NCBI RefSeq assembly: GCF_039839785.1
Contig: NZ_JBDOQT010000001.1
Span: 3,348,001-3,412,000 of the forward strand
Direction of reading: 5' to 3'
DNA from: Pelagibius sp. CAU 1746
GTDB lineage: Bacteria; Pseudomonadota; Alphaproteobacteria; Kiloniellales; Kiloniellaceae
DNA: 64,000 bases
Under the pieces are notes generated by a model. It was not told the DNA's origin, made no database searches, and saw nothing but the letters and a program-made list of their open reading frames with translations. The translations under genes and the position numbers were made by a program. Position 1 is the first letter of the stretch. The number at the start of each line of letters is the position of its first letter. This document shows positions 3,091-51,589 of the stretch, piece by piece.

Positions 3091-4011
3091 TCAATGCGCC
3101 CCTCCCGCGCCGATGGCATAGAGATCGTCCGGCGTCACCACCAGATCGAACAACAGCTTGCCGCAGACCCCCAGGACCATGAGCGCGAGCAGGATGCGCA
3201 ACTGCTCGCCGCGCAGGCGGGTGCCCGCCCGCGTGCCGATCTGGGCGCCGATCACCCCGCCGGTCAGCAGGATGAGGGCCAGAACCGCATCAACGGTCTG
3301 ATTCTGCGAGGCCTGCAGGAAGGTCACCGTCGCGGTGACGAAGATGATCTGGAACAGCGAGGTCCCGACCACCACGGAGGTCGGCATGCCCAGCAGGTAG
3401 ATCATGGCGGGGACCATGATAAAGCCGCCGCTGACACCCATGATGGCGGCCAGAATACCGACGATGAAGCCGATAAAGATGGGCAGCAGGGCGGAGATAT
3501 AGAGCTTCGACTTGCGGAATCGGATCTTGAACGGAAGACCGTGCATCCAGTGATGCTGGTGGAGCTTGCGGCGGACGTCGACCTGCCGGCGGCGGCGGAA
3601 CATGGCGCGGCTGGCCTCCATGAACATCAGGCCGCCGACGATGCCCAGGAAGACCACGTAGCAAAGGGAGATCACCAGATCGAGCTGGCCGAGGCCGCGC
3701 AGGACGGTGAAGAGCCAGACGCCAAACAGAGAGCCCAGGGTGCCGCCGATCAGCAGCACGAACCCCATGCGGAAATCGACGTTGCCGCGGCGCCAGTGCG
3801 CCAGCACGCCGGAGACCGAGGAGGCGACGATCTGGTTGGCCTCCGTGGCCACCGCCACCGCGGGCGTCACGCCGATAAAGATCAGCAAGGGCGTCATCAG
3901 GAAGCCGCCGCCCACACCGAACAACCCGGAAAGAAACCCGACGGCACCGCCCATGCCCAACAGAAGAAAGACATTCACAGAGATCTCTGCGATGGGCAGA
4001 TAGATATTCAT
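3091..4011 (-). CDS. TauE/SafE family anion (sulfite/sulfonate) exporter
   Basis: 306 residues, all hydrophobic segments and short loops, with the two-fold repeated family signature: GLFGVGGGFLMTPLL in the first half and IMGVSGGFIMVPAMIYLLG in the second. TauE/SafE proteins export sulfite or small organosulfur anions across the inner membrane. ATG at 4011 is chosen over a TTG just upstream. It follows soeC by about 130 bases on the same strand and is coupled to the TIGR02186 gene downstream, so export of sulfite not handled by SoeABC is the natural reading. A close paralogue sits at 50669-51589, with most residues shared, including the opening IYLPIA and SLCYVV. Substrate is inferred from neighbours. 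Confidence 0.88.
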   Translation of the reverse strand: MNIYLPIAEISVNVFLLLGMGGAVGFLSGLFGVGGGFLMTPLLIFIGVTPAVAVATEANQIVASSVSGVLAHWRRGNVDFRMGFVLLIGGTLGSLFGVWLFTVLRGLGQLDLVISLCYVVFLGIVGGLMFMEASRAMFRRRRQVDVRRKLHQHHWMHGLPFKIRFRKSKLYISALLPIFIGFIVGILAAIMGVSGGFIMVPAMIYLLGMPTSVVVGTSLFQIIFVTATVTFLQASQNQTVDAVLALILLTGGVIGAQIGTRAGTRLRGEQLRILLALMVLGVCGKLLFDLVVTPDDLYAIGAGGAH

Positions 4012-19321: not shown

Positions 19322-20158
19322 CTAGGGGTCCGCTGTATCGTTCAGCGCCCAGTCGTAGACCGTGCCGCCGATCTCTCTCTTTTCCGCCAGGGCCGCCGCC
19401 AGATCCGGCGACGCATAGCGGCGCAGATGCGCCAGCAGACCCTCGACGGACCCCCCGAAGTCCTCCAGGAACCAGTCGTAGATCTTCGAGACCACGACCT
19501 CGCCGCCAGCGACGGTTACGCCACGCGGATGATTGACGTAGCTTCGGGCCGCCTCCGCGAGCTGCCGTTCGGCATCCCCGCCCCGGTAGGCCGTCGGCGC
19601 AAGGTTGGGGCACCCGAGAGAGGCGCAGTTGACGGCATAGTGGATGCGCGGGTCGCTCCAGACCGGCCGTAGAATGCGGTGCTCGATGTCGTTCAGAGTC
19701 AAGGCCACGCCCTCTACCGTGACCAACGCGGCATCCCAGGGACCGTCGGCAAACCAGCCGGGCGAAATATCGATGTCGCGGATCGACGCCACCGGATAGT
19801 GCCGCGCGACCACCTGCAGCGTTACCGCATTGTAGAGATTGATCCAGTAAGCAAGCTGCTGGCTGCGGTTGAGAGTGCTGACCGGAACCGCCTCCAGCTC
19901 CGCAACGATGCCCGCGAGGGTCTCTGCTTCCGCGCCGGCGAGGCTGCGGTAGTCGACCCGGTTGATCCCGTCCCCGCTGCCCGTCACGACCCGCCGCAGC
20001 AGGGCGTCCCAGGCGACGAATTCCAATCTTTCGCGGCTGTCCGGCGCATGACGTTCCCAACGCGGCCAACGCTCCGCCGAGGGGGCGAAGAGCCTCTCGG
20101 CGGAACCAAATCCGCCAAGGGGGAGGATCAGGAGGAACAGCAGGGCGGCGCGATACAT
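19322..20158 (-). CDS. Exported DUF547 protein
   Basis: 278 residues. Signal peptide MYRAALLFLLILPLGGFGSA. The family hallmarks are LAYWINLYNAVTLQVVARHY, the cysteine motif NCASLGCPNLAP, and VSKIYDWFLEDFGG. The conserved Asn/Cys/His-type residues suggest a transglutaminase- or papain-like fold, but no activity has been firmly assigned to the family. The tail ends ALNDTADP. Ends close to the DUF1194 gene on the opposite strand. Confidence 0.85.
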   Translation of the reverse strand: MYRAALLFLLILPLGGFGSAERLFAPSAERWPRWERHAPDSRERLEFVAWDALLRRVVTGSGDGINRVDYRSLAGAEAETLAGIVAELEAVPVSTLNRSQQLAYWINLYNAVTLQVVARHYPVASIRDIDISPGWFADGPWDAALVTVEGVALTLNDIEHRILRPVWSDPRIHYAVNCASLGCPNLAPTAYRGGDAERQLAEAARSYVNHPRGVTVAGGEVVVSKIYDWFLEDFGGSVEGLLAHLRRYASPDLAAALAEKREIGGTVYDWALNDTADP

Positions 20159-21645: not shown

Positions 21646-22884
21646 ATGAAGCCGGAGCGGATCGAGAGCACGGCCCAAGCAGACGGCCAGTTGGGGCGGT
21701 CCGAGATAATGGCGATTGGCCACGCGGAGCTGGCCGATCTTCTGGTCAAACTGTGTCAGACCGACCCCAATCTGAACGCCCTGCTGCGCGGGCTGAAGCC
21801 GCAGAGGCACGGCCAGACCGCTGCCGAGCGACCATCCTCAGCCTTCGCGGAGCCCTTCATGGTCGGCGAGAGCCCAGCGATGAAAGCGGTATTCGAAGCG
21901 ATTCGCCGCTTTGCGCGCACCGATGCTCCGGTCCTCATCGAAGGCGAGAGCGGCACCGGCAAGGAACTCGCCGCGCAGGCCATACACGAACGCTCGGACG
22001 CCTCCGCCGGCCCCTTCGTGGCGATCAACTGCGGCGGCCTGCCTTCTTCTCTCGTCGCCTCCGAACTCTTCGGGCACGAGAAGGGCGCCTTTACCGGCGC
22101 GCATCAACGCAAGATCGGCAAGATCGAAGCAGCCAACGGCGGCACCCTGATGCTCGACGAGATCGGCGACATGCCGCTGGACTTGCAGCCTCACTTGCTG
22201 CGTTTCCTGCAGGAACTGACCATCGAAAGGGTCGGCAGCAACAAGCCGGTGCCCTTGACGCTAAGGGTCCTCGCTGCAACCAATCACAAGCTGGAGGAGC
22301 AGGTGCGCCGCGGCGCGTTTCGCGAGGATCTCTTCCATCGCCTGAACTGCTTGCGGCTGGACATCCCGCCGCTGCGCCAGCGCGGGGATGATATCATTCT
22401 GCTGGCAAAGTTCTTTGTGAGGCGCTTCTCCGCCGAGATGGACCGTGGCGACTATCGCCTGAGCAGCCCGGCCGTGGAAGCCATTCGCCTCTATTCCTGG
22501 CCCGGCAACGTCCGTGAGCTGATCAGCAGGGTCAGGCGCGCGATAGTGATGGCCGACGACCCGCTCCTATCGCCCCGCAACCTCGGGCTCGACGGCAACG
22601 CGATTCCCGATAGCGCCAACGATCATGCAGCCGGCCAAGCGACGGAACGCGCAGCGCCGCCCGATTCGGAGGAGATCTCGCGGCGCCCCACCGACTGCCG
22701 GACAACCACATTGGAACAGGTAAAGGCGCGCGTGGAGGAACGGATGGTTCGCGAAAGCCTGGGCCGGCACGCCCAGAACGTGACCTCGACCGCGCGGGCT
22801 CTCGGTGTCTCCCGCGTCACGCTCTACCGGCTGATCGACAAATATCACATCCGCAGCAGGGCCGCACCGACGCGGGCCAACTAG
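21646..22884 (+). CDS. Sigma-54-dependent enhancer-binding activator (Fis-type HTH, no receiver)
   Basis: 412 residues. A short N-terminal region (about 1-68) has no response-regulator receiver. The AAA+ domain carries Walker A GESGTGKE (100-107), the sigma-54 contact loop GAFTGA (147-152), Walker B TLMLDEIG (about 167-174) and the arginine-rich [20 protein letters not shown] Fis-type helix-turn-helix lies at about 380-402 ([16 protein letters not shown]). It should remodel RpoN-holoenzyme at -24/-12 promoters. Two such promoters are found 4-6 kb away at 26676 and 27330, in front of small exported-protein genes, which are the obvious targets. The barrel gene starts 22 bases downstream on the same strand. 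Confidence 0.92.
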
Positions 22885-22906
22885 AATCGAAACAGAGGAA
22901 GTGGTC

Positions 22907-24232
22907 ATGCCTACAGTCAATCCCGGACGCTCGATCGGATCGGCAGTGGTGAGCTCCCTCGGCATTGCCCTCCTCTCCGGCACCGCCTTTGCCCAGGACA
23001 TCCCGCAGCACCAGCCGGTGATCTACACCGTCGGACAGTTGTACGATCTGATCGAGAAACAGCGCGAGCAGTTGGAAGCGCAGCGCCTCCGGATCGACCA
23101 ACTGGAACATGCCATCCGGGGAATATCCGGACAGCCGCCCTACCAGATCGCGCCCGGCGCCGATAGCGGCTCTCCTTACCCACAGCCCAGCTCCGGCCGC
23201 AACGCGGCACCGGGCGTTATCTACGTGACCGCTCCGTCCGGGCCACAGCAAGCGCAGGGCGGGACGCCGGACCGGCCCGTCGGCGAGGAGGACCCCGACG
23301 CTCAACGCCGGCGTATCGACGTGTCCGGCGTGCAGGACATCGGCGGCGTCCTGACCCGCAGGAACCACCTGGTAGTAGAACCGTCGATCGAATACGAAAA
23401 CACCACAAGCACTCGCTTCTTCTTCGACGGCGTCGAAATCATCGAGACCGTTCTGGTCGGCGACATCGAAGTATCGGACGCCGACCGCGATACCATAACC
23501 GCCGCGGGCACGGTACGTTACGGCGTGACCGACCGCTCGGAAGTCGAAGTCCGCGTCCCCTTCGTTTACCGCAACGACGATGTGACCCGCGACGTGGTCG
23601 GCGGCGGCGGCGGCTCGGAAGCCAGCAGCCTCGATGCGGCCAATCTTGGCGATATCGAAGCCACCTTCCGCTATCAACTGAACTCCGGGCAGGACGATTG
23701 GCCCATCTTCGTCGCCAACGCCCGGGTGAAGTCTCCCACCGGGCGCGGCCCCTTCGACGTCGACCGCGATGAGGACGGAATCGAGACGGAGCTTTCCACC
23801 GGATCCGGCTTCTGGGCCGTCCAGCCCAGCGTCTCGGTCATTTATCCGAGCGATCCGGCGGTGTTTTTCGCCAATGCCAGCTATACTCACAGTTTTGGCT
23901 ATGACGTGGACGAGACGATTGGCGACTCTCATGTCGGCGACGTTCAGCCCGGCGACGTTGTCGGCTTCGGCTTCGGGATGGGATTTGCACTGAATAACAA
24001 GGCGTCCTTCAGCGTCGGCTACGCTCACGATTTCGTCTTCGAGACGGAGCAGGAGATCGACGGCACCACCATCAAGTCCGACAGCTTCGATGTCGGGCGA
24101 CTGAGCCTGGGCTTTTCCTACGCCCTCACCGACGACATCAACATCAACCTCAACACCCAGGTCGGCATTACCGAGGATGCCCCGGACGTCGTGCTGACCT
24201 TGCGCACCCCCATCACTTTCGACCTGAACTGA
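22907..24232 (+). CDS. Outer-membrane beta-barrel with N-terminal coiled coil (FapF-like transporter)
   Basis: 441 residues; ATG 22907 has a GAGGA ribosome site. A signal peptide (to about FAQ, residue 30) is followed by a coiled coil at 41-72 (QLYDLIEKQREQLEAQRLRI), a Pro/Gly/Ser-rich linker to about 130, and then a long run of alternating amphipathic strands ending with an aromatic-poor but typical barrel close (LRTPITFDLN). Coiled coil, linker and barrel in this order is the plan of FapF, the outer-membrane pore of the Pseudomonas Fap amyloid system. Directly follows the sigma-54 activator and converges on the lipoprotein/C39 operon. Homology to FapF is inferred from architecture only. Confidence 0.75.
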   Translation: MPTVNPGRSIGSAVVSSLGIALLSGTAFAQDIPQHQPVIYTVGQLYDLIEKQREQLEAQRLRIDQLEHAIRGISGQPPYQIAPGADSGSPYPQPSSGRNAAPGVIYVTAPSGPQQAQGGTPDRPVGEEDPDAQRRRIDVSGVQDIGGVLTRRNHLVVEPSIEYENTTSTRFFFDGVEIIETVLVGDIEVSDADRDTITAAGTVRYGVTDRSEVEVRVPFVYRNDDVTRDVVGGGGGSEASSLDAANLGDIEATFRYQLNSGQDDWPIFVANARVKSPTGRGPFDVDRDEDGIETELSTGSGFWAVQPSVSVIYPSDPAVFFANASYTHSFGYDVDETIGDSHVGDVQPGDVVGFGFGMGFALNNKASFSVGYAHDFVFETEQEIDGTTIKSDSFDVGRLSLGFSYALTDDININLNTQVGITEDAPDVVLTLRTPITFDLN

Positions 24233-24273
24233 CGAGGCCCCGGCGACCGGCGGCGACGGATCGCCCGCCCGAA

Positions 24274-24945
24274 CTACTGCAGAGAATTGACGAAGGCCTG
24301 GTGGAGTTCGAGCGGCAGCGGGCGATGCCCCCTGCCGATGTTCGGCCCGCCTTTGTGGAGCCGCGTGAGATTGAGGATATCGATGGCCAGAACCGAGACG
24401 CTACGGATATCGATACCGCTCTGGTCCGTGATGATCGTGGTGCCGATCCCATTGGGCCCGCCAACAGCGTGAATGATCCGGGTGGTTCCCAGTTCACCCC
24501 CGCCCAGGACGATCGAACTGGGATTCGCGAAACGCCCGTGATTGGCGAGGATCTCATCGTAGGTCAGAACCGAGGTCAATTGGGGAACGCCGTTGACGAT
24601 GGTCTCGAACCTGAAACCAAAATCGATCCTCATTCCGCCGGCGACGATGTAACCGCCGCGCTGCTGGTCAAGAACCCGGCGCTCGACCACGTCGTCCCGC
24701 GCGATCGGCTGCCCGCTGGCCATGGCCACCAGCACGTTGCCCTGCCCGGGACATCCGGATCCGGCCTCGGCCGCGCCGTCTCCGGGGCCGCAGGGCTGGG
24801 CAGCCCGCAAGGCCTGGTGGCTTGTTACGCTGGAGCAGGCTGCCACGCCCAGCGCCGCCACGGCCGCCAATACGCAGCCTCTCACCGCCCGGCCGGCACG
24901 TCCGAAGGTCTTTCTATGGGCTGTCGGTACGACTCTGCTGGACAT
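24274..24945 (-). CDS. Outer-membrane lipoprotein of the amyloid-like cluster (possible FapE counterpart)
   Basis: 223 residues from ATG 24945, which has a strong GAGGAGG ribosome site 11 bases after the C39 gene stop. A lipobox (GVAACSS, Cys37) marks it as a lipoprotein. The mature protein has VLDQQRGGYIVAGG at about 91-104, then a beta-rich region with FRFETIVNGVPQLTSVLTYD and ITDQSGIDIRSVSVLAIDIL. Two cysteines (CGPG, GCPG) lie just after the anchor. The RGG segment resembles a double-glycine leader site recognised by C39 peptidases. Last gene of the minus-strand operon. Function not known; an accessory role in assembly at the outer membrane is inferred. Confidence 0.72.
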   Translation of the reverse strand: MSSRVVPTAHRKTFGRAGRAVRGCVLAAVAALGVAACSSVTSHQALRAAQPCGPGDGAAEAGSGCPGQGNVLVAMASGQPIARDDVVERRVLDQQRGGYIVAGGMRIDFGFRFETIVNGVPQLTSVLTYDEILANHGRFANPSSIVLGGGELGTTRIIHAVGGPNGIGTTIITDQSGIDIRSVSVLAIDILNLTRLHKGGPNIGRGHRPLPLELHQAFVNSLQ

Positions 24946-24956
24946 CGGATGCCTCC

Positions 24957-25691
24957 TCAGCGCAAGCCCGATCCGGGCAGATAGATCGTGATGTTCGCCA
25001 GGTTGCTCTGGGCAACCGCCGGCCCTAGCGGCGCCTTGGGATGAGCGGCCCAATCCTCGACGAGGTTGAAGTTCGCCTTGGCCACGTCGACCTTGGTGCG
25101 AACGACGAAAACGATGTCGTTTTCCAGAAACTCCTCGAAGGCCGCCCGCTTGTACCGTTGAATGCCGCGCGACGGATCGCCGACAAGGACATCCTCTGAG
25201 GAGATTCCCTTGATCACGACGAAGTGCCGATAGCCGCTGATGTTCAGCAGGACGATCGCCGGGACGCCGACCTCGGCCAGCTTATCGAGAGAGACCCGGA
25301 AGCCGTCGGCCGTATAGCCCTGGGTGTCCAGGTACCGTTTCATATCGAGCAGCGAGAATCCCTGGGCCATGATCTTCTCGCGATCCCCGGCGGCGAACAT
25401 CGCTTGGAAGACCTCTTCCTCATGGGTGGGGCGATTGTAATGATAGGAGAGCAAAGTCGCGACCGCGGCCGAACCGCAAGAAAAGTCGCGCTCCTGCCGG
25501 ATCACCGACTCCCATTTGCGCTCCCTGAAGCTCTTTACCTTGAGATTGAACGCCATGCCGCCGGCGGAGACGAAACGGGCCTCCGCACCCCTGGCAACGG
25601 ACAATGAGAGGTTCGATCCCGCCAGCAGGCCGGCGACCGTCAGCAGGCAGGCCACATGCCGAAGGGCCGTAATGCTCTGTGCCTGTCCCAT
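24957..25691 (-). CDS. C39-family cysteine peptidase (FapD-like)
   Basis: 244 residues. An N-terminal hydrophobic stretch (about 10-32) is a signal or anchor. The catalytic elements of a C39 peptidase are complete: Gln66 and Cys72 in RQERDFSCGSAAVATLL, His156 in GYRHFVVIKG and Asp172 in VGDPSRG. There is no ABC transporter portion, so it is a stand-alone periplasmic peptidase, as FapD is in the Fap system. It sits between the small exported proteins and the lipoprotein in one operon (12 bases after the preceding stop), so processing of one or more of these is the likely job. Confidence 0.85.
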   Translation of the reverse strand: MGQAQSITALRHVACLLTVAGLLAGSNLSLSVARGAEARFVSAGGMAFNLKVKSFRERKWESVIRQERDFSCGSAAVATLLSYHYNRPTHEEEVFQAMFAAGDREKIMAQGFSLLDMKRYLDTQGYTADGFRVSLDKLAEVGVPAIVLLNISGYRHFVVIKGISSEDVLVGDPSRGIQRYKRAAFEEFLENDIVFVVRTKVDVAKANFNLVEDWAAHPKAPLGPAVAQSNLANITIYLPGSGLR

Positions 25692-25702
25692 TGCGCCCGC
25701 CC

Positions 25703-26077
25703 CTATGGCGAGACCGTGCTGTCGAGCACGGTCACCGCTATGACGTTCTGGACCTGTATGGCGTTGTTGTGGCCGGTATTGAAGATGTTCACCGACATTA
25801 TCTGGCCGGCGAAGGTATGAGATCCGAAATTGTTGTCACCGGCCGCCGCCAGCACATCTCCGGTGATGTCGACGGTCTGTTGCTGCGCGCCGATGGCCTT
25901 GGCGAGCTCGGCCTCATCGATTGCCAGGGCCATGCCGCGCTCCTCGGCCAGTTCCTGCGCCGGCACCGCTCCCCAATCCAGGAACGCGCTCTCCGCCGCC
26001 GCCGGAACCGCGCTGCAGAGAACGCCGGCGCCGGCGATGGCTGCCGAAAAGGCGAGCCTTTGCATCTTGGACAACAT
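25703..26077 (-). CDS. Small exported Asn-rich protein, amyloid-subunit-like
   Basis: 124 residues from ATG 26077, chosen for the GGGAGG site seven bases upstream. Signal peptide to about AAAE. The mature chain has an ELAEERGMA segment near 42-50 and a C-terminal half rich in Asn, Gln, Val and Ile: DNNFGSHTFAGQIM then GHNNAIQVQNVIAV. This half aligns with the neighbouring 104-residue protein (NNNFGNNTFRAQVL, then GVNSALQGANSVAI), so the two are paralogues. Short, aromatic-poor, Asn/Gln-containing repeats and a dedicated barrel and peptidase next door suggest a secreted fibre subunit or nucleator. No named family recognised. Confidence 0.72.
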   Translation of the reverse strand: MLSKMQRLAFSAAIAGAGVLCSAVPAAAESAFLDWGAVPAQELAEERGMALAIDEAELAKAIGAQQQTVDITGDVLAAAGDNNFGSHTFAGQIMSVNIFNTGHNNAIQVQNVIAVTVLDSTVSP

Positions 26078-26197
26078 GGCAACGCCTCCCAAGCATTGCA
26101 GGTTGCGAGATCGTCTCCGCGGGGGGGTCCGGTGCCCCCCGGACGGGAGCGCACCGGACAGGCCTCCTCGCAGAAGCCGTTTTACGATCTCAAAGGG

Positions 26198-26512
26198 TCA
26201 GTTCATCACGTTGGCGCCGATGGCCACCGAGTTGGCGCCCTGCAGGGCCGAGTTGACGCCCGAGTTGATGTTCTGCTGGTTCAGCACCTGGGCGCGGAAG
26301 GTGTTGTTGCCGAAGTTGTTGTTCAGAACGTTGCCCTGCGCCTGCAGGAGGGCGTTCATGGTGTTGACGTTCCCGTTGTTGGTGTGGGTCTGACCGAGGA
26401 CGCTGACGGCCACGGCGGTATTCTCCTGGTCGTCGAGGAAGGCCCAGGACGGGCTCGTCCCGCCAATGATCAGGGCGAAAGCCGAGGCGGCTGCGATAAG
26501 AGATTTCTTCAT
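26198..26512 (-). CDS. Small exported Asn/Gln-rich protein, amyloid-subunit-like
   Basis: 104 residues from ATG 26512 with a GGAG site. Signal peptide MKKSLIAAASAFALIIGG to about SWA. The mature 80 residues are strikingly Asn/Gln/Ala/Val-rich (QTHTNNGNVNTMNALLQAQG, NNNFGNNTFRAQVLNQQNI, NSALQGANSVAIGANVMN) with no Cys, Trp or Lys, as expected of functional-amyloid subunits. The repeats recall curlin or Fap subunits in composition but match neither motif closely. First gene of the operon that continues into the paralogue, C39 peptidase and lipoprotein. A perfect -24/-12 promoter lies about 165 bases upstream, leaving a long leader with a CCACGC/GCGTGG hairpin (26552-26568). Confidence 0.78.
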   Translation of the reverse strand: MKKSLIAAASAFALIIGGTSPSWAFLDDQENTAVAVSVLGQTHTNNGNVNTMNALLQAQGNVLNNNFGNNTFRAQVLNQQNINSGVNSALQGANSVAIGANVMN

Positions 26513-26675
26513 GATCGGTCTCCTAGTGTTGCTTTTTCCGGTCCTTCGCTTCCACGCGGGAAGCGTGGCTTGCCGGAAGGTTCCCTCGCCGGCCGCCTTC
26601 ACCCCCGAAGGGGCCGGCCGCCCTGTGGGACCTCCCGCATGAAGGCCTGCTTCGCACGCCTTCCCCCGGACAAGA

Positions 26676-26691
26676 AGCAACAGCCGTGCCA
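26676..26691 (-). promoter_or_regulatory. Sigma-54 (-24/-12) promoter
   Basis: On the minus strand TGGCACGGCTGTTGCT: a perfect TGGCAC at -24 and TTGCT at -12 with the required five-base spacing. It points at the Asn-rich exported-protein gene starting at 26512. The encoded RpoN activator is 4 kb away in the same cluster. A short inverted repeat, GGGTT-TCAG-AACCC at 26766-26779, lies about 80 bases upstream and is a weak candidate activator site. Confidence 0.85.
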
Positions 26692-26945
26692 CAGCGCGCC
26701 GGTCTCCTCTTTGGCCTGGATTCCCTTGGGTCATGGACGGGCCGCCGCGGCCCCCGGCTTCGATGGGGTTTCAGAACCCGACGGCAGGGGTTCATCTGGC
26801 TTTACAGTCCGTCCGCTTGTGCAACAGCCGGCGCCGCAACCGGTCTCGCGGCTGAAACGTATCGAGAGCTTTACGGTGTAAGGACGACGGACCCTGCAGT
26901 TGGCGTTGACGGCCTTCAGCGAAGGGCGGAGAAGACCCGGCCCCT

Positions 26946-27257
26946 TTATCGGGACTTCGCACTGACCGAGTTCATTCCCTGCCCGCCGGACATCACGCGC
27001 GGCTGCGGCGCAGGCGGCCGGCCCTGTTTCATCTCGTCCCAGAGGATGACCCCGAAGTCGTTGACCGGGCCCGGCACAGGCTGCATCTCAAGGCCGGCGC
27101 CGCGCGCGGCCTCCCGGCTCAATGCCCCTGCGTCGAGCGGTGCCGCATCCAGCAGCAGCAAAGCGTCTCCGGTTTGATTTTGCCAAGCCCGGCCGCTGCC
27201 CGGCGCCAACAGAGCCGACGCAAGCACCAGCGTGGCGGCGACTGCCCATTTGATCAT
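26946..27257 (-). CDS. Small exported protein of the amyloid-like cluster
   Basis: 103 residues from ATG 27257. Signal peptide MIKWAVAATLVLASALLAPG, cleaved near GRA. Mature part: WQNQTGDALLLLDAAPLDAG, then LSREAARGAG at about 46-55, then a Pro/Gly/Met-rich tail. The RGAG segment echoes RGM and RGG segments in the 124-residue protein and the lipoprotein nearby. It has its own perfect sigma-54 promoter 73 bases upstream, which ties it to the same regulon although it is separated from the main operon by about 430 bases. No family recognised. Confidence 0.7.
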   Translation of the reverse strand: MIKWAVAATLVLASALLAPGSGRAWQNQTGDALLLLDAAPLDAGALSREAARGAGLEMQPVPGPVNDFGVILWDEMKQGRPPAPQPRVMSGGQGMNSVSAKSR

Positions 27258-27329
27258 CTGGTCCTCCGCGGTTCCGCTCGGCTTCGCCGGTTGTCCGGCG
27301 CGATGTCCCGTCGTCCCGCAGTGACGAAA

Positions 27330-27344
27330 GCAATCAATGTGCCA
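27330..27344 (-). promoter_or_regulatory. Sigma-54 (-24/-12) promoter
   Basis: On the minus strand TGGCACATTGATTGC: exact TGGCAC and TTGC elements with five-base spacing, 73 bases before the start of the 103-residue exported protein and just after the LuxR-type regulator gene. The only other perfect match I noticed in the window is at 26676, on the same strand and in the same cluster. Confidence 0.85.
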
Positions 27345-27378
27345 GCGTCGTCCGAACCATCGAGGATCTACATCGCGG

Positions 27379-28197
27379 CTACGCCAGACCGGCGCGGCCA
27401 ACCGGAAAGACCGAGCCCCCGGGGCAATTCGTAAACCTCACCCTGCCGTCCGCGTTCTGCCGCGGGGCCGGCGAAGCGTCCTGGCTGCCGTCGCCTTCCG
27501 CCCAATCGTCCGCGGCCCGGCCGCCGCCGCGACGTTCCGTCCCGAAGACCTGCGCGGCGAAAAGCGCCGCCTGGGTGCGATTGTGAACCCCCAGCTTGCG
27601 GAAGACCGTGCGCAACTGAGCCTTGACCGTACCTTCGGCGATGCCCAGTTCGCGCGCGATCAGCTTGTTGGATTTTCCGTCCACCAGCCGCTCGAAGATC
27701 ATCGTCTGACGGCGGCTCAGAGACTGAACCGGCTTCTCCACTTCACCGGCGCCGGGTTCGCCACCGGCCGGCGCAGTACGGCAAGACGGTTCCGATGACG
27801 CCATCAAGGCCGAAACCGGCGCGTAGGCGCCTCCGGCCAACACCAGTTCCAGAACCCGCTCCAAGACCGCGAGACTGTCACTTTTGAAGATGTACCCCCT
27901 GGCGCCCTGCTGGATCGATCGGCGGGCATCGAGCGGCCTCTCCGAAGCGGAGACCACGACAAGCGGCGTTTCCGGGCGCAATTCGACGAGACGGCGAATG
28001 CTCTTGTCAGGATCCATTCCCGCCATGCACTGATCGCAGAGTATCAGGTCAAGGTCGCCGGATCCGCTGAGAATAGTCTGCAGCCCGTTATAATCGGATG
28101 CCTCCACCACCTCTATCTCGTCGCCGAAGGCATCGCTCAGCGCGCATCGCAGCCCCGCACGAAAGAGCGCATGGTCATCGGCCAGGGCAACTTTCAT
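27379..28197 (-). CDS. LuxR-family response regulator
   Basis: 272 residues. An N-terminal receiver starts MKVALADDHALFRAGLRCAL, with acidic pair ADDH and the presumed phosphorylated Asp in LILCDQCMAGMD; the switch Ser and Lys appear in VVVSASE and YIFKSDS. A LuxR-type helix-turn-helix follows (LSRRQTMIFERLVDGKSNKL, IARELGIAEGTVKAQLRTVF). The 60-residue C-terminal tail after the HTH is low-complexity. No sensor kinase is adjacent. Its location immediately upstream of the sigma-54-driven exported-protein genes suggests that it takes part in their control, as the LuxR-type CsgD does for curli, but this is inference from position. Confidence 0.88.
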   Translation of the reverse strand: MKVALADDHALFRAGLRCALSDAFGDEIEVVEASDYNGLQTILSGSGDLDLILCDQCMAGMDPDKSIRRLVELRPETPLVVVSASERPLDARRSIQQGARGYIFKSDSLAVLERVLELVLAGGAYAPVSALMASSEPSCRTAPAGGEPGAGEVEKPVQSLSRRQTMIFERLVDGKSNKLIARELGIAEGTVKAQLRTVFRKLGVHNRTQAALFAAQVFGTERRGGGRAADDWAEGDGSQDASPAPRQNADGRVRFTNCPGGSVFPVGRAGLA

Positions 28198-28849
28198 CGA
28201 TCACCCCTCCTCCACCTGCGAGCATCGCCTACGGAGTTCTACGGAAGAGACATCTCGCCCGGTTCACGAGCGTTTGCCGCCGCGCCGCCGGGGGTTCCGG
28301 ATACGGGCCCTCTCGAAAGCGATTTCTCACAGCACGCACCCCCGCAAGGCAGGCAAGTAGGCTTGATGCATCGACTATGATCCAATCCGGGAGCGGCGGC
28401 TCCGGCGATAATCAGACCGGAGATCGCACGGCCGCTTCATTCAGAAAGTCAGGCATGAGCCCTTTCGCTCACGTTTCGCGCTGCCGCAGCCGCCAAGCTG
28501 CTCGGAAGCGCGAGGCTCCGCTTTCCGAATACTCCTGACAGGAAGGATAACGCTGCCGCCGAAACAAATACAATGACTTTCACGGAGCAACGTGACTTTC
28601 CGGCGAACGTAATCGAAAAATATTCCTGAGGCAGTACGAAATGAAAAGAAAAGTCAGAGGCGGCGGAATACATTCGCAATTTTTAGGAAACTGTTTGGTG
28701 AAACACAGGAAGCAGCAGGTCCGGCCCCGCCTTCTACCGCGCCAAGGCCGATTCGCCACAACAAGGGAGACCAGATCGGATCCACAGGGGCGGTGGATCG
28801 CCTCTGGCGATTCCCGCCGGCCCTGATCAGCCCTAGCGGTTTCCTTGCT
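28198..28849. other. Gene-poor region upstream of the LuxR regulator
   Basis: About 650 bases with no convincing gene on either strand. The part at 28555-28700 is clearly AT-richer than the window average (for example AATCGAAAAATATTCCTGAG), with a repeated TGACTTTC, and is likely regulatory for the minus-strand regulator or a trace of acquired DNA. No -24/-12 element found. Confidence 0.4.
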
Positions 28850-38890: not shown

Positions 38891-39451
38891 ATGCCGGGGC
38901 AGAAGACCACCCAGGAACCCATGGATGGCGGAGACACGGACACCTCAGTCCGCATCGAGGATGCCGACCTGCGCCGGCTGTTCGATTACTGGCGGTCCCT
39001 GCGCCAGGGACGCTCCATGCCGTCGAAGAACGACATCGACCCGCTGGATATCGGCTGGGCGCTGTCGCGGATCTACCTGCTCGACTACACGCCCGCCGCG
39101 GGCTTCGTGTATTGCCTGGCGGGGGTGGAAGTGGCCGGAGTCTTCGGGCGGGCGAACCTCAAAGGCCTGAAACCGCGCGACTTCCTGCCGCCGGATCGTG
39201 CCGTCATGGTCGAAGGGCTCTTTCGCCGGGTCGTCGAGGAGCGCTGCGTCATGTGGATGAAAGGACTGATCTACCTGCGCGCAGACAGGGTGCCCACGGG
39301 CGAACGCCTCTTCCTGCCGCTCGGCGACGACGCGGGGAACGAGGTCACCGGGATTCTCGGCATGACCGTGGTCCACTCGGTCGCTCCGGAAGGCCCCATC
39401 GGAATGAGTTATCCCAAGGACCATTTCGTTCCGGTCGATGACCTGCCCTGA
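38891..39451 (+). CDS. PAS-like (PAS_5 type) protein, copy 1
   Basis: About 186 residues from ATG 38891, preceded by GAGGGCGG; several in-frame ATGs upstream are possible. Shows the PAS_5 pattern: LRRLFDYWRSLR near the start, MPSKNDIDPLDIGWALSR, then LLDYTPAAGFVYCLAGVEV and a GxxxxxGILGMTV end. Such alphaproteobacterial proteins contain a lone PAS fold and no output domain. It is followed 26 bases later by a clear paralogue. Ligand and partner unknown. Confidence 0.75.
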   Translation: MPGQKTTQEPMDGGDTDTSVRIEDADLRRLFDYWRSLRQGRSMPSKNDIDPLDIGWALSRIYLLDYTPAAGFVYCLAGVEVAGVFGRANLKGLKPRDFLPPDRAVMVEGLFRRVVEERCVMWMKGLIYLRADRVPTGERLFLPLGDDAGNEVTGILGMTVVHSVAPEGPIGMSYPKDHFVPVDDLP

Positions 39452-39477: not shown

Positions 39478-40035
39478 ATGGCGGCGAATAGGGAGCGGCC
39501 TGGCCCAAGCACCGGAGAGTCTCCCGCCGTGTCCTTCCTGGAGAAGCCGGACCTGCGCAGGCTGTTCGATTACTGGCGGTCCCTGCGCCGGGGACGCCTC
39601 ATGCCGTCGAAGAACGACATCGACCCGCTGGATATCGGCTGGGCTCTGTCGCGGGTCTTCCTCATGGACTACCGGCCCGCCGAGGGCTTCACCTACCGGC
39701 TGGCGGGCACGGAGGTCTCAAGCGTCTTCGGGCACTCCAACCTCAAGGGGCTGAACCTACGCGACGTGGTGAAACCGGAGCGCCTGGCCTTGATCGAAAG
39801 CGCCTGGACGCGGGTGGCGGAGGATCAAAGCGTCGTCTGCATGTCGGGCATGGTCTACCACGGCGTCGACCGGACCTCGATCGGCGAACGCCTGCTGCTG
39901 CCGCTGGCCGACGAGGCCGGGGGGCCGGTCACCGGCCTGCTGGGCATGACGGTCGCCAATTGGGTGACGGGCGAGGTTACCGAGGAGATGAGGGCCATCG
40001 ACGTCAAGGCTATCCCCGTCGAAGAGATTCCTTGA
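39478..40035 (+). CDS. PAS-like (PAS_5 type) protein, copy 2
   Basis: 185 residues. Tandem paralogue of the preceding gene; the block from LRRLFDYWRSLR through NDIDPLDIGWALSR is nearly identical at DNA level, while the rest has diverged (RIYLLDYTPAAGF versus RVFLMDYRPAEGF). Ends VKAIPVEEIP. Convergent with the flavoprotein gene five bases on. Probably arose by recent duplication or was homogenised by gene conversion. Confidence 0.8.
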   Translation: MAANRERPGPSTGESPAVSFLEKPDLRRLFDYWRSLRRGRLMPSKNDIDPLDIGWALSRVFLMDYRPAEGFTYRLAGTEVSSVFGHSNLKGLNLRDVVKPERLALIESAWTRVAEDQSVVCMSGMVYHGVDRTSIGERLLLPLADEAGGPVTGLLGMTVANWVTGEVTEEMRAIDVKAIPVEEIP

Positions 40036-50668: not shown

Positions 50669-51589
50669 ATGGAAATCTATCTCCCCATCGCCGGCATCTC
50701 CGAGAACCTTTTTCTCATTCTCGGGCTTGGCGCGGGGGTTGGCATGCTCTCAGGCATGTTCGGCGTCGGCGGCGGTTTCCTGCTCACCCCGCTGCTCATG
50801 CAGATCGGCATCCCGCCGCCCGTGGCCGTGGCCTCGGCGGCCAATCAGGTGATCGGCGCCAGCGTATCCGGCTGCATGGCGCACTGGGCGCGGCGCAACG
50901 TCGATTTGAAGATGGGGATGATCCTGCTTCTGGGCGGCTTCGCCGGCTCGACGGTGGGAATCTGGGTGTTCCGCCTGCTGCGCGCCCTCGGCCAGATCGA
51001 ACTGACCATCTCACTCTGCTACGTCGTCCTGCTGGGTGCCCTCGGCACCCTCATGCTGGTCGACGCGCTGAAGATGTTCTACCGCAGGGGCAAGGGCGGC
51101 ACGGCGGTGGCGCGCGGCGCCCACCGCCACACCTGGATCCACCACCTGCCTTACAAGATGCGTTTCCGGCGCTCGAAGCTCTATATCTCGGCGCTGGTCC
51201 CGGCCGGCGTCGGCTTCTTCGTCGGCTTCCTCTCGGCCATCATGGGGGTGGGCGGCGGCTTCGTGATGGTTCCGGCGATGATCTATCTGATCGGCATGCC
51301 CTCCTCCGTGGTGGTCGGCACCTCCCTGTTCCAGATCATCTTCGTCAGTGCCAACGTCACGGTGCTGCAGGCCGTCACCAACCAAACCGTGGATGCCCTG
51401 CTTGCCCTGCTGCTGCTGGTCGGCGGTGCGGTCGGGGCACAGATCGGCGCGCGCGTCGGCGCGCGCCTGCGCACCGAGCAGTTGCGCATCCTGCTGGCCC
51501 TCATGGTGCTGGCCATGAGCATTGAAGTTTTTCTGGAGCTGGCGGTCCCGCCCGAGGATATCTACTCGATCAGCGGGACCGCTTCCTAG
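50669..51589 (+). CDS. TauE/SafE family anion exporter, second copy
   Basis: 306 residues with the duplicated family motifs GMFGVGGGFLLTPLL and IMGVGGGFVMVPAMIYLIG. It is a near full-length paralogue of the exporter at 3091-4011, the same length and starting with the same IYLPIA. No sulfur-metabolism gene is next to it. A TIGR02186 partner is absent here. The stop is 58 bases from the stop of pgi on the opposite strand. Confidence 0.88.
   Translation: MEIYLPIAGISENLFLILGLGAGVGMLSGMFGVGGGFLLTPLLMQIGIPPPVAVASAANQVIGASVSGCMAHWARRNVDLKMGMILLLGGFAGSTVGIWVFRLLRALGQIELTISLCYVVLLGALGTLMLVDALKMFYRRGKGGTAVARGAHRHTWIHHLPYKMRFRRSKLYISALVPAGVGFFVGFLSAIMGVGGGFVMVPAMIYLIGMPSSVVVGTSLFQIIFVSANVTVLQAVTNQTVDALLALLLLVGGAVGAQIGARVGARLRTEQLRILLALMVLAMSIEVFLELAVPPEDIYSISGTAS

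Follow-up and report, generated by a model that had tools for sequence, protein, structure and literature searches.

A probable Fap-type functional-amyloid export locus outside the Pseudomonas Fap clade in the alphaproteobacterium Pelagibius sp. CAU 1746

Within the 64,000-nucleotide stretch of the Pelagibius sp. CAU 1746 genome analysed here (assembly GCF_039839785.1, contig NZ_JBDOQT010000001.1, positions 3,348,001 to 3,412,000; hereafter the window) lies a block of eight genes that probably constitutes a Fap-type functional-amyloid export system, belonging to a clade other than that of Pseudomonas Fap (Table 1). All eight genes had been named in an initial annotation of the sequence and were recovered as open frames at or near the coordinates it had given. 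A codon-usage gene caller agreed on all eight, placed the starts of the barrel, lipoprotein and C39 peptidase genes further downstream, and gave the small3 gene a low score (8.7). The sigma-54 activator and barrel genes follow one another on the plus strand, the latter converging on the lipoprotein gene, and the minus strand carries, in order of transcription, the genes for the LuxR regulator, small3, small2, small1, the C39 peptidase and the lipoprotein, the last three being spaced by 11 nt. The signal peptides and lipobox of the window proteins were read from the sequence by eye. Pfam gave no match up to E 1 for the lipoprotein or for any of the three small proteins; these four also had nothing credible in NCBIfam (best 0.0095, to an oxidoreductase model) and reached only 0.11 in PHROGs, and no structured RNA was matched at Rfam gathering scores across 18–33 kb of the window.

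Table 1. Genes and promoter-like sites of the block (window coordinates)
Feature	Position	Strand	Evidence
Sigma-54 enhancer-binding activator, BrfA-like	21646-22884	+	Sigma54_activat 1.6e-67 (Pfam)
FapF-type outer-membrane barrel, N-terminal helix and flexible linker	22907-24232	+	NCBIfam, PDB, fold match
FapE-like lipoprotein, lipobox-like VAAC, leader motif VLDQQRGGY	24274-24945	-	FapE profile
FapD-like C39 cysteine peptidase	24957-25691	-	Peptidase_C39 1.7e-18 (Pfam)
small1: FapB-like single-repeat exported protein, leader VPAQELAEERGM	25703-26077	-	genus repeat profile
small2: FapC-position subunit, one Asn-rich repeat, 104 amino acids (aa)	26198-26512	-	genus repeat profile
small3: third small exported protein, GVILWDE and loose leader-like stretch LSREAARGA	26946-27257	-	
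LuxR-type response regulator	27379-28197	-	GerE 2.7e-18, Response_reg 3.6e-13 (Pfam)
RpoN -24/-12-like site GTGGCACGGCTGTTGCT, upstream of small2	26676-26692	-	score 12/13
RpoN -24/-12-like site CTGGCACATTGATTGCT, upstream of small3	27329-27345	-	score 12/13

Sequence and model together identify the barrel as a FapF homologue, as the initial annotation had supposed. It matched the NCBIfam FapF model at 3.7e-52 (177.5 bits), and a phmmer search of PDB sequences up to E 1 returned only the FapF entries 5o67, 5o65 and 5o68 (5.2e-32 to 6.7e-31). An AlphaFold2 model built from 34 sequences (mean predicted local distance difference test, pLDDT, 78) comprises a helix at residues 42–73, the predicted counterpart of the periplasmic coiled coil, followed by a low-confidence linker and the barrel. 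The only significant Pfam match of the protein is Phenol_MetA_deg (3.5e-6), which would fit an uptake porin of the phenol or metal type standing beside unrelated exported proteins. In the comparison set in advance to separate FapF from such porins, the 18 best fold matches in the PDB were all FapF chains, with target-normalised template modelling (TM) scores of 0.81–0.87, the next being the COG4313 channel at 0.65–0.67; with the PDB sequence matches confined to FapF and C39 and FapE-like neighbours recurring beside such barrels, we rejected a porin identity for the barrel and regard a porin reading of the block as highly improbable.

The peptidase is likewise related to FapD (NCBIfam FapD, 3.3e-45, 154.1 bits), again in line with the initial annotation. 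Residues C72, H156 and D172 are invariant across 18 aligned sequences, the window protein included, and would form the catalytic triad by likeness to the C39 domain of CvaB as described in PMC10233263. A C39 peptidase and a barrel are also shared with the Fil system, which NCBIfam calls a 'putative pilus system' and which is linked to Acinetobacter; the window proteins score lower against its models than against those of Fap, the barrel reaching 72.9 bits with FilC (3e-20) and the peptidase 114.5 bits with FilB (5.5e-33).

In the C39 loci collected for comparison, the protein encoded after the peptidase resembles FapE of the Pseudomonas loci, the latter being inferred as such from FapF scores over the NCBIfam cut-off. 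A profile of 50 such proteins downstream of C39, none from the window's genus and all chosen by a motif regular expression, was run on the 675 frames of the window and gave the lipoprotein as its sole significant match (3.9e-11); when restricted to the post-leader part, the profile still ranked it first (7.7e-4). The lipoprotein is thus identified by profile as a FapE homologue with no close sequence likeness, and may perhaps be lipid-anchored. FapE-like frames occur in 109 of the 116 C39 loci, or 104/111 once five duplicate records, left out of all further 111-locus counts, are removed; 96 of the 109 lie directly 3' of the C39 gene and the other 13 belong to long same-strand frames whose start falls within it.

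The fraction of Asn and Gln is 0.34 in small2 after the signal, 0.17 in small1 after RG and 0.11 in small3, so that of the two small proteins first called Asn/Gln-rich, small2 is strongly and small1 moderately so. Gene order is kept in four loci of the same genus (L025, L026, L028 and L030), where the gene in the small2 position encodes proteins of 794, 757, 781 and 773 aa, respectively, each with eight imperfect repeats of the core ~SLNNNFGxxTFxNQVINQNNINSGINSAQQGANTxAIAV. A profile of the 32 repeats from these four species matched small2 at 3.6e-17 and small1 at 7.7e-6 among the 675 window frames, everything else scoring at least 0.5. Based on this profile and on gene position, small2 therefore appears to be a FapC-position subunit and small1 a FapB-like subunit, each with one repeat. 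Homologues of the small proteins thus occur beside such barrels within the genus, the sequence links outside it being weak. The initial annotation took the system for a divergent relative of Fap with much shorter subunits: the relationship stands, whereas the eight-repeat protein of the four congeners (757–794 aa) makes the short subunit a feature of the window genome and not a trait of the system. In two loci of the window's family (L031 and L033), Gly/Asn/Ala-rich low-complexity proteins are encoded upstream of the FapB-like gene, and the type of the major subunit may therefore differ from one genus to another.

The retention of a single repeat in small2, against eight in four congeners, could also mean that the locus is a decayed Fap-like one in which seven repeats have been lost and the remaining subunit no longer functions. 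We consider such decay quite unlikely, given that all eight frames are open, that the catalytic residues and both RpoN-like sites are kept, and that the small2 frame is intact with a signal-like N-terminus. No relic repeats were found in positions 24000–28700, and a search of the own genome with the eight-repeat homologue returned only the small1 and small2 genes and no other repeat protein. Collapse of repeats during assembly was rejected as a cause of the short gene, the repeat cores of L030, the sole relative measured, sharing 60–79% DNA identity.

RpoN control of the block, as first annotated, is indicated by several signs in the sequence. The window was scanned with YTGGCACG-N4-TTGCW, in which GG and GC were obligatory and 13 was the maximum score; the only two sites scoring 12 each lie ahead of a small gene in the block, and when the bases of the window were shuffled 100 times, four of the shuffles gave at least two sites of 12 or more (mean 0.29). 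At a score of 11 or more, the window holds five sites, compared with 2.7 on average after shuffling. The four congeneric loci have a site of 11–12 upstream of the repeat gene and a second, of 11, further upstream, in the same order as in the window. By tblastn, the window activator scored 297–331 bits against the activators found next to six other fap-type loci, compared with no more than 227 bits against six paralogues from its own genome. In 74/111 loci the C39 gene has a sigma-54 activator within 7 kb, as it does in 48 of the 64 in which 7 kb were available on both sides. In P. fluorescens PF07, the fapA-E genes have a mapped RpoN promoter and require the adjacent BrfA (PMC9207406). The LuxR regulator was rejected as a core component: a homologue within 7 kb of C39 was present in 7/111 loci, linked within the genus and rarely elsewhere.

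The initial annotation held Fap to be described mainly outside Alphaproteobacteria, and the window proves to be no lone case, FapF-family matches being found in 27 of the 385 genomes sampled from the class, its own included, and in 42/398 genomes across the phylum. Of the 27, 19 have a C39 match no more than 10 kb away. Among related genomes, 20/98 (own included) have a C39 match, four of these being weak and in frames of more than 700 aa, and the closest C39 loci in the named collection are those of a Rhodospirillales metagenome-assembled genome (MAG; LYSY01000001) and a Pelagibius sp. MAG (JANQMC010000138). Five of seven congeners have a C39 match, four with a window-type locus and one (G003) with a Pseudomonas-clade FapF, and two have none. 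Fap was reported only in Beta-, Gamma- and Deltaproteobacteria in PMC3792158, where FapD and FapF profiles matched larger families, and a later survey added 25 further genera and fapD-fapF pairs in five further phyla (PMC6173800). Since the wider family was glimpsed in this earlier work, we do not claim to be the first to report it in Alphaproteobacteria.

A FapF tree of 103 rows was built by a quick method, with a midpoint root and with four duplicates and the short row L113 excluded; it returned long-branch warnings and placed the window protein in a clade of 87 rows (Shimodaira–Hasegawa-like approximate likelihood ratio test, SH-aLRT, 98). This clade includes Halomonadaceae, Burkholderiales, Lysobacteraceae, Rhodanobacteraceae, Ectothiorhodospiraceae, Geobacteraceae, one myxococcal MAG, Acidithiobacillus and Alphaproteobacteria. 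A separate 12-row clade (98) holds the inferred Pseudomonas FapF proteins together with L164 and L165, from another family of the window's class, and the congeneric L041. By exclusion, 95 loci were assigned to the clade of the window; the barrel is present in 87 of them, a FapE-like protein in 92, a FapB-like one in 81, and all three in 72. Locus L041, from the congener G003, combines its Pseudomonas-clade FapF with canonical Fap repeats and an ILWDE protein, while four other congeners are window-type. Two further loci of the genus (L027 and L029) and one of the same order (L042) hold a very divergent C39 and FapF-like pair on a long separate branch, near which L029 and L042 encode Asp/Val-rich, exported-looking proteins.

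A motif of the form ~[VIL]xxxELxx[LM]RGGF, resembling a double-glycine leader, is nearly always present in the FapE sequences and often in the single-repeat subunits. FapE bodies were located with the post-leader profile in 93 loci, and the strict leader, LxxxRG[GKR], precedes 68 of them (4/1887 background stretches) and a loose form 91 (622/1887). As the FapE seeds came from the motif regular expression, the 40 loci never chosen by it are the fairer set, and in these the strict leader was found in 19 and the loose one in all 40. Of 85 unique FapE leaders, 69 have V, I or L at -12 and 44 have E at -8; L or M stands at -7 in all 85 and at -4 in 57. R at -3 is shared by 83, G by 77 at -2 and by 75 at -1, and F at +1 by 69. 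The columns at -7, -3 and -2 are partly the product of selection, as the alignment regular expression fixes the kind of residue there. The double-glycine leader consensus, LSxxELxxIxGG, has the same register.

FapB-like proteins were selected by position and a short N/G string and not by leader, and 35 of 79 bear the strict leader (10/650 background proteins) and 70 a relaxed one (123/650); loose picks such as those of L039 and L097 are outside this set of 79 and inside the 81-locus count given above. In the Pseudomonas clade, FapE has a form like E[LM]xx[LMI]RG[RK], with single variations, in 11/12 loci, and we suggest that the signal went unnoticed there because it ends in RG[RK] rather than RGG. 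A FapA-position protein in four loci carries LSDxDIxxISSG or a near form, once LGDADFARVSGG. The ILWDE-type motif of small3 also occurs in frames at 12/111 loci, preceded by VRGR in five of these and by looser stretches in the others and in the window. The motif would nominate FapE and the single-repeat subunits as clients of FapD, with RG(G) as the candidate cut site. In PMC5557850 (2017), the active Cys of FapD is required for FapC secretion and the FapD target is described as unclear, Fap proteins being without canonical C39 sequences and FapE having GG and GA motifs; PMC6173800 (2018) calls the target yet to be determined, and no later answer was found among the listed matches in the open literature, subscription papers and preprints being outside the scope of the search.

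From homologies, gene order, promoter-like sites and leader conservation, all drawn from sequence and models, we infer Sec export, cleavage, secretion and fibre formation in a block that probably works like Fap. The adjacent activator and RpoN would switch on the small3, small2, small1, C39 and FapE genes, whose products would pass the inner membrane via Sec. On FapE, on the FapB-like small1 and perhaps on small3, a second, double-glycine leader (~[VIL]xxxELxx[LM]RG) would remain once the signal peptide is removed, to be recognised and cut at RG(G) by the periplasmic C39 peptidase, whereupon the cut proteins would be free to pass through the FapF barrel and to start and build the Asn-rich fibre. 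The wider proposal is that FapD-type peptidases superfamily-wide read such a Sec-following leader on FapE, many FapB-like proteins and perhaps the ILWDE protein, that the cut licenses passage through FapF, that the signal is hidden in Pseudomonas, that the window FapE may be lipid-anchored until cut, and that the fibre subunit has here shrunk from eight repeats to one; we put it forward tentatively, as finely balanced and leaning, if anything, towards doubt.

The nap island of Neisseria shares with the block a C39 peptidase (NapP), a FapF-like channel (NapF) and clients with double-glycine (GG) leaders (PMC11798529), a pairing which makes the leader reading more plausible and at the same time supplies its main rival, namely that C39 and the FapF-like barrel export small signalling or bacteriocin-like GG peptides without any amyloid. 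The GG-type leaders frequent on the FapB-like proteins here would suit such a role. However, in the account of nap given in PMC11798529 the clients are short peptides, predicted to be cationic helices of 16–36 aa when mature, accompanied by an immunity-like gene, and FapE and Asn-rich repeats are unmentioned there, whereas the mature window products are acidic (pI, isoelectric point, 4.1–5.1), 76–80 aa long and in one case Asn-rich. With a FapE homologue in the block and eight-repeat homologues in the genus, peptide export of this kind is unlikely. Curli likewise passes an Asn/Gln-rich repeat amyloid across the outer membrane, in common with a Fap-like system, but the window components had zero curli-family matches in the Pfam and NCBIfam scans.

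The block shares with Fap (fapABCDEF and brfA) the FapF barrel, FapD C39 peptidase, FapE, Asn-rich repeat subunits, adjacent sigma-54 activator and RpoN-like promoter. It differs in its order, small3-C-B-D-E with F on the opposite strand, in its RGG-ending FapE leader and in the leader borne by its FapB-like protein. A number of observations weigh against assignment to Fap or against the proposed mechanism. The window FapF falls outside the Pseudomonas Fap clade, and barrel and peptidase score below the curated NCBIfam naming cut-offs for FapF (700 bits) and FapD (330 bits). The repeat pattern published for FapB and FapC, X15GX4NX3GX6NX7 (PMC3792158), has no match in small1, small2 or the four eight-repeat proteins of the genus, Asn/Gln-rich matches to it being present in 11/12 Pseudomonas-clade loci and 12/95 others. 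A weak, three-seed FapA profile found nothing in the block, its best window match (E 0.19) lying elsewhere; FapA is often absent from known Fap systems according to PMC3792158. The kinship between small1 and the FapB-like proteins found in other taxa is no more than suggestive: in profile-profile comparison with their repeats small1 reached 82.8% and the genus repeat, taken directly, 0.2%, and a profile of these repeats matched small1 at E 0.7 only. The structure model of the FapE-like protein is poor (pLDDT 59.8), and enrichment of RpoN-like sites over the 111 loci is weak (0.23 versus 0.13 per 10 kb; 24/111 loci). The strict leader is missing ahead of 25/93 FapE bodies, many of them from Halomonadaceae. 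Mass spectrometry of strain UK4 yielded peptides throughout FapA-D and none from approximately the first 70 residues of FapE (PMC5557850), a gap longer than the stretch predicted by the leader. Finally, a one-repeat subunit may be unable to build fibres. Because the tests of repeat pattern, curated cut-offs and clade fail, we regard the block as a member of another clade and not as Fap sensu stricto.

The comparative set thus names candidate FapD clients and a candidate cut site where PMC5557850 and PMC6173800 left the target open, and delineates a large clade of amyloid-type exporters distinct from the Fap of Pseudomonas, while a genus with an eight- or one-repeat fibre subunit offers a natural test of the repeat number that a functional amyloid needs. 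Beyond the block, the frame at 19322–20158 (MYRAALL...) resembles by eye the genes adjoining the cluster in L025 (4248–4964) and L028 (14876–15592), and is perhaps a conserved neighbour. Elsewhere in the window, the adjacent genes at 38891–39451 and 39529–40035 look like a tandem duplication, their products being strongly similar (LRRLFDYWRSLRxGRxMPSKNDIDPLDIGWALSRVF), and those at 3091–4011 and 50669–51589, 47 kb apart, encode similar membrane-type proteins (IYLPIAxIS...LSGxFGVGGGFLxTPLL).

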